In this document: one piece after another, positions 22,207-26,496 of the stretch
How the letters are laid out: each line of letters begins with the position of its first letter
Numbering within the stretch: position 1 is the stretch's first letter
Assembly (NCBI RefSeq): GCF_003569045.1
Contig: NZ_BFCB01000001.1
Span: 279,189 to 343,188 of the forward strand
Direction: 5' to 3'
DNA length: 64,000 nucleotides
Origin: Aggregatilinea lenta
Lineage (GTDB): Bacteria; Chloroflexota; Anaerolineae; Aggregatilineales; Aggregatilineaceae
Position numbers and translations under genes: made by a program
The notes under the pieces: model-generated
Databases searched by the model: none
Told to the model about the DNA's origin: nothing
What the model saw: only the letters and a program-made list of their open reading frames with translations

Positions 22207-23787
22207 ATGCTTAGCCCACGCGACGCCTGGCACGCCACACTCGGCCAACTCGAGCTGCAGCTCAACCGGGCCACGTTTGATACGTGGCTCAAGGGGTCCG
22301 AGCTGCTGGCTTATGAGGATGGCTCGATGACGGTGCGCGTCCGCCACGCTTACGCGAAGGACTGGCTGGAGCAGCACCTCTATCACCTGATCTCCCAGAC
22401 GCTCAGCAGCCTCATCGGGGAGCCGGTACGCGTCAGCTTCACGGTGTCCGTGCCCGCGCAGCCGCCCGTCGAGCGGCAGGCCGGGACGTTATTCGCCGCG
22501 CTGCCGGACGAAGACCACACCGCCACCAACAGGCCGCAGGCCAAAGCGGAAGTCGGGGTCGCGTCGCTGGCCGCCAGTGACAGCAGCGCCGAGGTGGACA
22601 CCGCCGACACGGACGCCGCGCCGCGCAGTGGAGCTTCGACCGCCACACGCTCAACAGCGTCGAGCGCACTGAAGCCCGCACCCCGCAGCAACGAGATCGC
22701 GCACGAGCACCCCGCGCCGCGTCCGTCGGCTAGCAGCACGCTCGACACGCCCCGCGTGCCGTTCAACCGCCGTTACACGTTTGGCTCGTTCGTCACCGGG
22801 CCGAGCAACCTGTTCGCGCAGGCGGCGGCCAAAGCCGTCGCGGACGCGCCGGGCGACGCTTATAACCCGCTCACACTGTACGGCGGCAGCGGCCTGGGCA
22901 AGACGCACCTGCTCAACGCCATCGGGCAGGCGTGCGAAGCCGCAGGTAAGCGCGTGGTGATGGTCACGGCGGAAATGTTCACCAACGACATGGTCGCCTC
23001 GATCCGCTCGCACAGCATGGCCGATTTCCGCGATCGCTATCGCGGGGCAGACGTGCTGCTGGTGGACGATATCCAGTTCATCGCGGGCAAGACCGGTACA
23101 GAGGAAGAGTTCTACCACGTCTTCAACACCCTGATCAGCCAGAACAGCCAGATCGTCGTCGCCTGCAACGCGCACCCGTGTCACCTGGGCACCCTGGACG
23201 AGCGGCTGCGCAGCCGGTTATCCGGCGGCCTGATGGCGGACGTACAGCCCCCGGAAGAAGCCATGCGGCTGGCGATCCTCAAGGCCAAGGCCGAGGCGCA
23301 GGGTATGCCGCTGCCGGACGACGTGGCGCAGATCCTTGCCGGGCCGGACACCACGAACGTGCGCGAGCTGGAAGGGCTGCTGACACAGGTCCTGGCGCGC
23401 ACGTCGCTGACAAAGGAACCGCTGAATGCCGACTTGGCCTATCGCGTGCTGGGCAAGTCGCAGTCGGTCCGCCAGCCCGCGTCCAAATCCTCGCAGCGCA
23501 AGGGCACCGGCCTCAAGCAGGTGCTGGCCGCGGCAGCATCCTTCCACCAGTTGTCGATGGACGACCTGCTGAGCAAGAGCCGTACCAAAGAAGTGGTCCG
23601 TGCGCGGCAGGTGGCGATGTACTTGGCCCGCGAAGAAACCGAAGCCTCGCTGCCCCAGATCGGGGAAGCACTGGGCCGCAACCACAGCACGATCCTGCAC
23701 GGCTACAAGAAGATTGCCAGCGAGATCCCACTGGACGACGCGCTGCGCCACGAGCTGAGCGCGATCCGCCGCCAACTCTACCAATAG
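22207..23787 (+). CDS. dnaA: Chromosomal replication initiator DnaA
   Basis: This 526-aa protein has all four domains. Domain I (about 1-80, WHATLGQLELQLNRATFDTWLKG) is the helicase/DnaB-interaction part. Domain II is a long Ala/Ser/Thr linker (about 85-185). The AAA+ domain III has YNPLTLYGGSGLGKTHLLNA with Walker A at 226-233 and Walker B VLLVDDIQF at 283-291. Domain IV ends with the DNA-binding signature EASLPQIGEALGRNHSTILHGYK. Walker A reads GGSGLGKT where GGVGLGKT is usual, and the sensor I strand reads VVACNAHP instead of VLTSDxxP. It binds DnaA boxes and opens oriC. dnaN is not next to it. Confidence 0.97.
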   Translation: MLSPRDAWHATLGQLELQLNRATFDTWLKGSELLAYEDGSMTVRVRHAYAKDWLEQHLYHLISQTLSSLIGEPVRVSFTVSVPAQPPVERQAGTLFAALPDEDHTATNRPQAKAEVGVASLAASDSSAEVDTADTDAAPRSGASTATRSTASSALKPAPRSNEIAHEHPAPRPSASSTLDTPRVPFNRRYTFGSFVTGPSNLFAQAAAKAVADAPGDAYNPLTLYGGSGLGKTHLLNAIGQACEAAGKRVVMVTAEMFTNDMVASIRSHSMADFRDRYRGADVLLVDDIQFIAGKTGTEEEFYHVFNTLISQNSQIVVACNAHPCHLGTLDERLRSRLSGGLMADVQPPEEAMRLAILKAKAEAQGMPLPDDVAQILAGPDTTNVRELEGLLTQVLARTSLTKEPLNADLAYRVLGKSQSVRQPASKSSQRKGTGLKQVLAAAASFHQLSMDDLLSKSRTKEVVRARQVAMYLAREETEASLPQIGEALGRNHSTILHGYKKIASEIPLDDALRHELSAIRRQLYQ

Positions 23788-23868
23788 CCCCAGCCTCACC
23801 CGCCAACCGATCTCCCATTCAGGCAGTGCGCGCCGCCGCGTTCACGTGGATTTCTGTCCCCCATCCCA

Positions 23869-24043
23869 TACGCATTAAGTTAAGCATTTCCGAGGGGAAC
23901 ACGGCCTTTCGTAGGGGCGGGGCAAGCCCCGCCCGTTGAGAGAAAAGCCGGGTAGGGCAAGCCCTACCCCTACGGTTACAATCGCTCGCGCTCTGCGTTG
24001 ACGCCAGGGGAAACAGTTACATTTAGATCGTTAGCTTAATGTG
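23869..24043. repeat. Composite intergenic repeat, copy B (inverted copy of 9226-9400)
   Basis: It runs from CGCATTAAGTTAAGC to GTTAGCTTAATG and is the reverse complement of copy A with only scattered differences. It contains the same two internal palindromes and lies directly after dnaA. Confidence 0.75.
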
Positions 24044-24098
24044 TATACCCTCCATCCCCTGGCCCCTTGCCCCACGCAAGCGGAGGGCAGGGGAAAGT

Positions 24099-24129
24099 GA
24101 CGTAGAGGCGTATTGCGATACGCCCCGTC
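24099..24129. repeat. Palindromic repeat family 2, degenerate copy
   Basis: GACGTAGAGGCGTAT faces ATACGCCCCGTC around TGCG. It is the same design as 30686-30713, 53628-53655 and 60749-60776. Confidence 0.55.
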
Positions 24130-24961
24130 AGGTAGAGCAAGCCTGGCCCCAACTAACAGACACAATCCGTCAGGTCATCCGCATGGATTTGCCTCACGCA
24201 ATCCCACACCAGATATACGCCAGCACATGACATCCACCACCCGTCGCTGTGCACAGATCCGGCGCGTGCCGCTGTGCACAAATCCAACACGCACCGCGAT
24301 TCCGTGCCTTGTTGATAACCCGGCGACGGTTATCAACAGGTCCGGCGCGACGGTTCGATTTAACATTCGCGGAAGCGGTCCCCGTTGCCGCCACATGCAG
24401 CGCAACAAAAATCTGTAAGAACCCACATCTGGCGGACCCTGACGCGAATCGAGCAACGTTGCGATGAACGAATATACACACAGTCGATCCGCGTTCATCT
24501 TCGCCTGTGCACAGCATCGACACACCGTGCACAGGCTGTCGATAGCTGTGTACAACGCGATCGTGCCCGGTCCACAGCTAGGATAGAACATCGGGTCTAC
24601 ACCAGATGTAGGTGCGAACGTTTGTGCGGAATTTTGCGCTGGCTCGGGCCTGTTCACGCTGTTGAAAACTGTTCATAATTATCAACAGGGTGTGTCGACG
24701 GCGGCGTCACAGAAACGACGGGTGAATCACCGCGATCCGGGAAACATGTGGTGTATGACTCATTTCTTGCCGCCAGATGTGGGCGCGTAGATCGAATCGA
24801 ACGAAGAGTCCCGGTGCGCTTATCGACATACGCACAGGCTCTACGACTACGACTAAATTTATTATTTTTATCCTCCACAAGAAAAAGCTCTTTAGAATCA
24901 GAATCTACTGTGCACAGTGGAATCGCGCGCGCAAAACACAAGACTTGGAAAAGAGGTCTGC

Positions 24962-25492
24962 ATGGAGCTGCATCAAACTTCCTCACGGCCCGTACACAAC
25001 TTCACCCTGGTTCCGGTTGGATTCGAACACGTTCCGGCGCTGCTGGACGTGTACCGGCAGTGCGAAGACTTCCTGGCGCTCGGTCCGCAGGCGTATGCAT
25101 CAATCGAAATGGTCAAGCAGGATCTCCGGCTGTCGCAGAAGGCCGGGGGGCTGTACCGGGGTATCGTCAACGCGGACGGGCAGATCGTGGGCGTGCTGGA
25201 TGTGGTTCCAGGGGGCTTCGAGGGCGACCCGGCGGTGGCCTTCGTCGAGCTGCTGATGATTGCCGTGCCGTTTCGCGGGCGCGGGCTGGGCGAAGCAGTG
25301 CTCGCCGCCGCGGAAGCCGAGATCTGCGCGAACCCGGCGATCCGCGAAATTCAGTTGGGCGTGCAGGTGAATAACCCCGGCGGGCTGCGCTTCTGGCGGC
25401 GTATGGGCTATACGGCGTGCGGCGAGCCGGAAGATTTGCCCGACGGCACGCGGGCGATGCGGTTTCGGAAGGGGATCGAGCGAACTGGCTAG
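24962..25492 (+). CDS. GNAT-family N-acetyltransferase
   Basis: This 176-aa protein starts at 24962 behind AAAAGAGGTCTGC. The acetyl-CoA-binding core is clear: FVELLMIAVPFRGRGLGEAVLAAAEA (Q/RxxGxG/A motif RGRGLG), followed by REIQLGVQVNNPGGLRFWRRMGYTACG, the typical end of the fold. The acceptor substrate is unknown. It converges with holB, the two overlapping by 4 bp at their ends. Confidence 0.88.
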   Translation: MELHQTSSRPVHNFTLVPVGFEHVPALLDVYRQCEDFLALGPQAYASIEMVKQDLRLSQKAGGLYRGIVNADGQIVGVLDVVPGGFEGDPAVAFVELLMIAVPFRGRGLGEAVLAAAEAEICANPAIREIQLGVQVNNPGGLRFWRRMGYTACGEPEDLPDGTRAMRFRKGIERTG

Positions 25493-26496
25493 GGCGTAGG
25501 GTAGTCGAGCATCAGCACTTCGAGCGCCAGCCGCGCGTTGGCGTTCTTGCCCAGCGCGACGATCGTCCGGCAGGTGGCGTCCAGCGCGTGGTGCGCGGCA
25601 GCCGTGCCGATGGCCTGCGCCAATGCGCTTAACTGCTCGGCGTGGTCATAGTTGGTGATGGGGGCCTGGCTGCCGCTGGCCAGCAGCAGCGCGTCGCGCC
25701 AGTAGCCCTGCCAGACGTCCAGCAGGGGCAGCAGCGCGCCCTTGTCGCCCGGCATGCCCTCGACGAGCTTAAAGCGCTCTCTGCGCTTGCCCTGGAGCGC
25801 CTGTTCCAGCAGAACGACCGCCTGCTGGCGCAGCTCCAGTTCTTCCGGGGCCTGGAGCGCCGCAATTGCCCAGCCGATGCGCCCACCGGACAGCCGCGCC
25901 AGCATCTCGGCCTGCTCTGGCGGCGCGTCGTAGCGCTCGACCAGCGCATCGCGCACGGTTTGCAGTGGCAGCGGACGCAGCTGGATCGGCTGGCAGCGCG
26001 ACACGATGGTCGGCAGCAAAGCGTCGGTCGATTCGGCGGTGAGGATGATTACCACGTCGCGCGTCGGCTCCTCCAGCGTCTTCAGCAAGGCGTTCGCGGC
26101 GGCGGGGTTGGCCTCGTGGAAGCGCCGCAGGATGGCGACGCGGTAGCGGGCCTCGTAGGGCCGCAGAGACAGCACCTGCTGAAGATCGCGGACCTGCTCG
26201 ATCTTCAATACGCTGCCTTTTTCGCCGGAGTCGATGATCGTCAGGTCCGGGTGGCTGCTGTGCGCGATCAGTCGGCATGCGCGGCACTCGCCGCACGGCG
26301 CGTGCTCCCCGGTGCAGACCAGCGCCGCCGCGAAGGCGCGCGCCAGCGTCGTCTTGCCGATGTGTCCTGGTCCGGTGATCAGGTAGGCGTGGCGCATCCG
26401 GTTGTGCCGCAGCGCGCGGTCGAGGTGCTCGATCGCCCACTCGTGCCCGATGACGGGCCAATACTGCGTTACGGAGGCCATGGTCGAGTTGCTCAT
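25489..26496 (-). CDS. holB: DNA polymerase III delta' subunit
   Basis: This 335-aa clamp-loader subunit starts WPVIGHEWAIEHLDRALRHNRMRHAYLITGPGHIGKTTLA, a Walker-A-like loop. The zinc-knuckle cysteines are CTGEHAPCGECRACRL. The AAA+ core continues with IEQVRDLQQVLSLRPYEARYRVAIL, the AANALLKTLEEP signature and ILTAESTDALLPTIVSRCQPIQL. It helps load the sliding clamp during replication. The upstream LysM/M23 gene ends 2 bp before its start. Confidence 0.93.
   Translation of the reverse strand: MSNSTMASVTQYWPVIGHEWAIEHLDRALRHNRMRHAYLITGPGHIGKTTLARAFAAALVCTGEHAPCGECRACRLIAHSSHPDLTIIDSGEKGSVLKIEQVRDLQQVLSLRPYEARYRVAILRRFHEANPAAANALLKTLEEPTRDVVIILTAESTDALLPTIVSRCQPIQLRPLPLQTVRDALVERYDAPPEQAEMLARLSGGRIGWAIAALQAPEELELRQQAVVLLEQALQGKRRERFKLVEGMPGDKGALLPLLDVWQGYWRDALLLASGSQAPITNYDHAEQLSALAQAIGTAAAHHALDATCRTIVALGKNANARLALEVLMLDYPTP

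Follow-up and report, generated by a model that had tools for sequence, protein, structure and literature searches.

A probable chromosomal replication origin downstream of dnaA in Aggregatilinea lenta, with variant DnaA boxes, a BUS-like unwinding element and NrdR-box-like sites

The closest described counterparts of the locus studied here are the BUS unwinding elements, the DnaA boxes of actinobacteria and the paired binding sites of the repressor NrdR. The BUS rule places a DnaA box, with at most two mismatches to TTATCCACA, 0–16 bp from the trios, and calls for at least three consecutive 3'-NAN-5' trios (PMC8287927). Actinobacterial DnaA boxes have been described as TTGTCCACA (PMC4285127). 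The boxes of NrdR come in pairs of 16-bp palindromes, acaCwAtATaTwGtg(t), with spacers of 14–17 bp (PMC4009431, PMC12051234), and dATP enables the repressor to bind DNA, which is sharply kinked at each box (PMC12051234). NrdR reportedly clusters with dnaA and other replication genes, and topA is under its control in Pseudomonas (PMC4898720, PMC4409342). In Caulobacter, elevated dNTPs have been reported to delay initiation (PMC12186491).

We analysed a stretch of 64,000 nucleotides (the window; C1:279189-343188 in an assembly of five contigs and 6.2 Mb in total), in which a sequence-only reading had proposed an oriC on the downstream side of dnaA. That proposal stands, with a flip of GC skew, a cluster of box words and the sole unwinding-element match in the genome all at this location, which was computed directly, and the locus is very probably best explained as a chromosomal replication origin with DnaA-box clusters, a BUS-like element and NrdR-box-like sites. 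An oriC as such is ordinary here; the surprise is the conserved NrdR-like sites inside it. The features are as follows, in window coordinates, with negative numbers giving distances from the unwinding box.

22207..23787, plus strand: dnaA (526 aa; Pfam Bac_DnaA 197.6 bits, Bac_DnaA_C 84.6, DnaA_N 36.3)
24209..24917, no strand: probable oriC, with DnaA-box clusters, NrdR-box-like sites and unwinding element
24209..24218: very weak NrdR-box-like site CCAGATATAC (4.5 bits)
24247..24256, no strand: palindromic DnaA-box variant CTGTGCACAG
24273..24281, minus strand: DnaA-box variant TTGTGCACA
24310..24318, minus strand: DnaA box TTATCAACA, inverted pair with the 24330 box
24330..24338, plus strand: DnaA box TTATCAACA, inverted pair with the 24310 box
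24423..24432: NrdR-box-like core CCACATCTGG, second best in 64 kb; weak partner CCACATGCAG at 24391-24400 (p 0.015)
24505..24514, no strand: palindromic DnaA-box variant CTGTGCACAG
24525..24533, plus strand: weak DnaA-box variant CCGTGCACA
24547..24555, minus strand: DnaA-box variant TTGTACACA
24602..24611: weak NrdR-box-like site CCAGATGTAG (8.2 bits)
24670..24678, minus strand: DnaA box TTATGAACA
24679..24687, plus strand: DnaA box TTATCAACA, at -141, a slot common to L034, L036, L037 and L038
24773..24782: NrdR-box-like core CCAGATGTGG, at -47, best in 64 kb; weak partner AAACATGTGG at 24742-24751 (p 0.033)
24820..24828, plus strand: unwinding DnaA box TTATCGACA (match to the relatives' model 24819-24865, E 1.0e-9)
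24828..24836, plus strand: second, weaker box-like word ATACGCACA, in tandem with the unwinding box
24841..24855, plus strand: DnaA-trio-like array CTACGACTACGACTA, 12 bp past the unwinding box
24855..24907, no strand: AT-rich patch beside the trios (75% AT), the expected unwound region
24908..24917, no strand: CTGTGCACAG past the AT patch
25489..26496, minus strand: holB (DNA polymerase III delta prime), convergent with oriC, likewise in family relatives

Downstream, the region is bounded by a GNAT acetyltransferase gene and by the convergent holB. As the sequence-only reading had stated, no credible gene follows dnaA (none of the six ORFs of the region has a Pfam match) and dnaN is not in its expected place, being found at C1:614013, about 310 kb off. 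A search of the window with Rfam gave three tRNAs, none of them within the oriC region. In the gap between dnaA and the origin, positions 23912-23980 hold GC-rich inverted repeats (GGGGCGGGGCAAGCCCCGCCC / GGTAGGGCAAGCCCTACC) that resemble a dispersed palindrome or a terminator.

Within the window, cumulative GC skew has its minimum at 24526 and its best change point at 24603. Across the assembly, 60 stretches of 15 kb were sampled together with four from the window, two of these overlapping. To the left of the locus on C1 seven of eight stretches were negative, and to its right nine of 12 were positive; C2 was negative in 16 of 17 stretches, C3 was positive in 15 and negative in six of 21 (its first two stretches being slightly negative), C4 gave three positive and then two negative stretches, and C5 a single negative one. 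This pattern fits a single origin at the locus with a terminus in C4. The sign thus flips from minus to plus where an origin had been proposed, a check that gives less sharp support than the others, and as the sampling was coarse and C3 contains negative stretches, skew alone leaves room for further switches.

The earlier list of six TGTGCACA-like words holds in part: four are exact (24248, 24273, 24506 and 24909), and the other two are near matches with one change each, CCGTGCACA at 24525 and CTGTGTACA at 24546. The three TTATCAACA words lie where they had been placed (24310 on the minus strand, 24330 and 24679 on the plus strand), and two boxes, TTATGAACA (24670, minus) and TTATCGACA (24820, plus), had been overlooked. 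TGTGCACA occurs five times in the window against 0.91 expected, and TTATCAACA three times against 0.07, counts that were reached in 0 of 100 shuffles in either case. Genome-wide, four of the 26 places with TGTGCACA fall within 669 bp at the oriC region, as do four of the 79 places with TTATCNACA within 519 bp; elsewhere in the whole genome, TTATCNACA never occurs more than twice within 1 kb in the list read by eye. A rival region with tight boxes, which the sequence-only reading had named as evidence against itself, did not emerge, with no comparable cluster of the two exact words that were searched genome-wide. Away from the origin, two TGTGCACA words lie 66 bp apart inside a mechanically predicted ORF (L162:2273 and 2339; C3:1264272 and 1264338).

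The suggestion that this lineage uses a variant DnaA site was correct, yet the variation is mild, since G at position 3 is already known from actinobacteria (PMC4285127). We counted box words in 14 origins (9,766 bp) and in 145,935 bp of flanking control, and found TTATNNACA 72 times against 3, TTGTNNACA 22 against 6, TTTTNNACA 8 against 13, TTCTNNACA 1 against 11, and TGTGCACA 8 against 1. These graded counts mark words with A, and then G, at position 3 as origin words, and those with C as not. The identity of the variants by position was computed as well: words of the TTGTNNACA type occupy slots that are TTATNNACA in relatives, and TTGTGCACA is a DnaA box by the position that it holds, the unwinding-box slot. 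With G at position 5, TTGTNNACA turns into the palindrome TGTGCACA, which is the same DnaA-box word read on both strands. What is shared with the actinobacterial boxes (TTGTCCACA) is a GC-rich genome and a G at position 3, whereas here position 5 is often G, which produces an 8-bp palindrome, and position 6 varies (TTATCAACA, TTATCGACA) (PMC4285127). Perfect palindromes would also suit a dimer, and one could suppose that the TGTGCACA words are sites of another dimeric protein and that only the TTATNNACA words are DnaA boxes, particularly as TGTGCACA in the 1.5 kb past dnaA is found mainly in the A. lenta genome (four copies, with two in L045 and one each in L034 and L038). We consider this unlikely, because the unwinding-box slot itself is filled by TTGTGCACA in G001 and by TTGTCAACA in G004 and G036, relatives have TTAT in slots where TTGT words stand (e.g. 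-141 and -152), the counts fall stepwise through A, G, T and C at position 3, and position-3 G has a precedent in the actinobacterial boxes.

The DnaA of the window lacks one Gly of the GG turn that precedes the recognition helix (GRNHST versus GGRNHST), a loss otherwise seen, among the loci compared, only in L061 (G045), and an AlphaFold model of the protein (mean pLDDT 77, pTM 0.47) keeps the helices on either side of this turn. The loss could matter, but it was set aside as the cause of the TGTGCACA words, which L045 has without it. We also examined the residue that we take to be at the position of E. coli 433. Asn in place of Asp at this position was rejected as an explanation of the variant boxes, Asn being common in the family whatever the box type. 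The residues concerned are named in PMC5043019.

The sequence-only reading gave neither the unwinding box nor the trios, nor the second motif described below; it had pointed to the AT-rich patch beside the last box, and this patch is confirmed, with an AT content reached by 0.05% of the 53-mers of the window. A model of the unwinding element, built on 13 family origins with the window excluded (threshold E 0.5, strict filters), has a single match in the A. lenta genome (E 1.0e-9, C1:304007-304053, i.e. window 24819-24865). At E <1e-6 the model hits 15 of 18 family genomes: 13 of them are the training set, and two, A. lenta and G016, are independent. G007 and G009, which belong to the same family, give no match, and G012, whose dnaA contig stops 59 bp past the gene, gives only one at 0.35. 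With the BUS of Bacillus subtilis and many phyla the element shares the DnaA box, the 12-bp spacer and GAT-type trios on the complementary strand, followed by AT-rich DNA, as well as a weaker tandem box (PMC8287927), and a word at the place of ATACGCACA stands in most rows of the relatives' alignment. The window box TTATCGACA has one mismatch to TTATCCACA and a spacer of 12 bp, both within the BUS limits. In contrast to the BUS as described, trios 2 and 4 of the window do not conform (1, 3 and 5 do), and three upstream groups of boxes are present with NrdR-box-like sites between them (PMC8287927). Of 14 family origins, all with CTA in the fifth slot, 11 have three consecutive trios, as do 10 of another 20 loci tested; the run is broken in the window (CTA CGA CTA CGA CTA) and also in L045 and L047. 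As the consecutive run fails, we call the element of the window BUS-like and not a strict member; it is homologous to a BUS and probably works like one. DnaA would bind the clusters of TTATNNACA boxes and of their A-to-G variants TTGTNNACA, assemble toward the last box at 24820 and pass onto the trio array at 24841-24855 as a single strand, and the patch at 24855-24907 would open and receive the helicase; DnaA binding and unwinding are inferred.

The conserved architecture was computed from relatives, DnaA matches having been found in all 61 genomes searched. Sixteen regions from the same GTDB family (f1; 18 genomes including A. lenta) were used for word comparison, and the publicly named relatives (11 loci) are Chloroflexi/Anaerolineae MAGs. 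TTATCAACA is present in 12 of the 16 regions, with 22 copies within 1.3 kb past dnaA and none in the background. In 14 of them we found the same element, i.e. a DnaA-type box, mostly with a weaker box in tandem, trios like CTACTACTACGACTA and AT-rich DNA; it is absent from L035 (G009) and L040 (G007). Measured from the unwinding box, the 94 TTRTNNACA words of these 14 origins fall at -547 to -457 (21 words), -400 to -268 (23) and -213 to -104 (35), with 12 at position 0 and three beyond the box, and inverted pairs of boxes 18–20 bp apart recur. The spacing, whose conservation the earlier reading had proposed as a check, is thus kept in relatives, with an exact -141 box in the window, L034, L036, L037 and L038. 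Downstream on the opposite strand, holB is present in 11 of 13 other family origins, the two without it being loci that are short on that side. In families f2, f4, f7 and f8, the model matches on stretches with no match to dnaA or holB (19 loci, L174-L192), and at least five TTRTNNACA words surround the match in 16 of these 19, with two in each of L183, L187 and L188. From this comparison we obtain an origin architecture that covers ten genera of a single Chloroflexota family, and in further families an element of the same type lies away from dnaA. The unusual palindromes are accounted for as DnaA boxes.

These data also bear on the idea of a cluster that titrates DnaA or regulates dnaA, with the real origin elsewhere. 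Such a cluster would fit a region that adjoins dnaA and has no dnaN flank, and the skew sampling is coarse and noisy; we nevertheless regard it as highly improbable, given that the skew changes sign at the locus, that the only unwinding-element match of the genome is here, that the search for the two words turned up no competing cluster, and that the same module occurs on stretches without a dnaA match in other families of the order. As further observations on these regions, G041 has a dnaN-like ORF, recognised by eye, upstream of the oriC-like element, and a GAF-type sensor histidine kinase-like ORF begins about 90–190 bp past the unwinding box in L034 (by family search) and in L044, L045, L046, L049, L175, L180, L192 and L059 (by eye), a place that is taken in the window by the GNAT acetyltransferase. 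A further shared word, GTGGGAAAT / ATTTCCCAC, is present in seven of the 16 f1 regions, in some of which it touches the second motif, and the 8-mer GTGGGAAA in eight.

The second motif, CCANATNTGG, lies between the DnaA-box clusters, and 15 of 25 origins have it some 45 bp ahead of the unwinding box (sites of at least 9 bits at -37 to -57). It is counted 24 times in the 14 family origins (13 of 14 genomes) against six in the control, and shuffles gave a mean of 0.3 and a maximum of 2, a control that is not independent, because the 16 regions that yielded the motif were also those in which it was counted; held-out families, nrdR promoters and spacing are the fairer tests. We trained a profile on 22 sites in 13 family origins, leaving out that of A. 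lenta, and its two best positions in the 64-kb window, 24773 (13.5 bits) and 24423 (13.1 bits), are both inside the origin; an 884-kb sample of the A. lenta genome has one position that reaches 13 bits. By itself, the core CCANATNTGG is frequent in this genome, with 70 occurrences where the reversed control has 54. Among held-out origins, sites of at least 14 bits inside the origin region are present in 3/3 of f4, 2/2 of f6, 6/7 of f7 and in G053 of f8. No good sites near the unwinding element were found in six f8 origins (G024, G030, G035, G040, G049 and G057), in the f2 origins fetched (G025, G036 and G041) or in G023 of f7. Across the 25 origins, the score of a partner site peaks at 31–33 bp (robust z 4.0-4.4); in the window the sites are single, with weak tandem partners (p 0.033, 0.015, 0.038 and 0.25). 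A phylum-wide scan for the second motif, unwinding box and trio start together found 4 of 400 genomes, including A. lenta, in a sample with only two genomes of this order, and the reversed control found 1 of 400, so the exact combination is not general.

The same motif was found at nrdR. In the A. lenta genome, two core sites 32 bp apart (C2:1312354 and 1312386) lie between genes for FtsZ (confirmed by TIGR00065) and NrdR (TIGR00244, 142.3 bits, cut-off 124.65), followed by a ribonucleotide reductase match (C2:1309595-1311130), and the profile trained on origins scores these promoter sites at 20.0 and 21.0 bits. Strict copies lie between ftsZ-like and nrdR-like ORFs in five relatives (L146, L147, L148, L150 and L152). 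We scanned 17 loci, in 11 of which nrdR was recognised by sequence pattern (six of the 11 having been fetched because of the motif), and all 11 have the motif at 12 bits or more upstream of nrdR, ten of them as tandems of 31–32 bp. The reductase led to ten loci, of which five have a recognised nrdR, all five with the motif and four with the tandem; of the other five, L196 has a tandem and L200, L201, L203 and L204 do not. The strict form CCCCANATNTGGGG is present in 20 of 61 genomes, at some places inside ORFs or in unclear context. As the same tandems stand before nrdR, beside ribonucleotide reductase, in A. lenta and in its relatives, the second motif is most likely the NrdR box, and we hold this, on the likeness of the motifs, to be its best identity with good confidence.

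Compared with known NrdR boxes, the motif is alike in its palindromic core C.ATATAT.G, in its tandems of 31–33 bp and in its place upstream of nrdR beside a ribonucleotide reductase gene, and it differs in its flanks, which are rich in C/G, in the C/G that replaces w, and in being placed inside oriC as well (PMC4009431, PMC12051234). Of the ten positions of CwATATATwG, eight are retained in the consensus core CCATATATGG, which has C/G for w, and six in the copies of the window, CCAGATGTGG and CCACATCTGG. The likeness to the nrdR-promoter motif was computed, and it is in many relatives that the palindrome is strong and partly tandem; the case for NrdR therefore comes from relatives, the window sites being weak and some families having no sites. 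The single degenerate copies between the DnaA clusters of the window would most likely be NrdR boxes too, sites of a repressor that takes to DNA when it carries both ATP and dATP. Before the nrdR promoters turned up, a divergent parS had been considered, and it was then dropped; canonical parS (TGTTTCACGTGAAACA) has no occurrence within two mismatches in the whole genome, and HTH_ParB has no match in it, seven of 21 genomes searched having one. We also considered that the motif might serve a regulator partnering the histidine kinase beside the origin, and the link to nrdR promoters is the stronger.

A literature search short of full-text level found no report of NrdR boxes within oriC, and if present they would tie the dNTP level to initiation, a possible direct link to nucleotide supply; at a near-fixed distance from the unwinding box, such boxes would make this question concrete and testable. 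We tentatively propose, at a little under an even chance, that in this order of Chloroflexota NrdR, as a dATP/ATP sensor, binds within oriC between DnaA clusters, some 45 bp ahead of the unwinding box, kinks the DNA and directly couples initiation to the dNTP pool; both the binding and the effect on initiation we infer. NrdR might either block initiation or license it as a nucleotide-sensing counterpart of IHF. A block would fit the delay caused by elevated dNTPs in Caulobacter (PMC12186491), and the kinks enabled by dATP could also help assembly (PMC12051234). Accessory origin proteins such as E. coli IHF offer an analogy, in that a DNA-bending site between DnaA boxes may do a comparable job, whereas NrdR would be a nucleotide sensor and not a nucleoid protein (PMC10380432). 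In relatives, NrdR would then act on dnaA too, and in one perhaps on dnaN. Scanned from 700 bp before the open frame to 150 bp into it, dnaA has the motif at 8 bits or more in all 17 family relatives with that end and in 11 of 20 other loci. The dnaA promoter of A. lenta has no match of at least 8 bits and its dnaN locus none of at least 7 bits. A strict copy was observed at the 5' end of a dnaN ORF, just ahead of the likely start (L149:2321, G007).

The motif may instead serve only to regulate flanking genes (dnaA, holB, the histidine kinase), or bind a regulator other than NrdR, with no role in initiation. Its presence upstream of dnaA in relatives and at the dnaN 5' end in G007, the histidine kinase gene downstream in several relatives and the families without the motif at the origin would agree with this, but the motif stays near -44 from the unwinding element despite different neighbours (f1, f4, f7), several copies alternate with DnaA clusters, and the tandems of 31–33 bp and the core C.ATATAT.G fit NrdR boxes (PMC4009431, PMC12051234); we regard this explanation as less likely than not.

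A DnaA-related sequence was also seen outside the chromosomal locus. On C5 (20 kb), a 435-aa ORF (L163:1334-2641, minus strand) looks by eye like a replication protein, and its C-terminus resembles DnaA domain I, with 59% identity to that of the chromosomal DnaA over 86 residues. The stretch resembling domain I also has matches in proteins of other lengths in relatives, and the ORF perhaps belongs to a mobile element that borrowed a helicase-recruiting domain.
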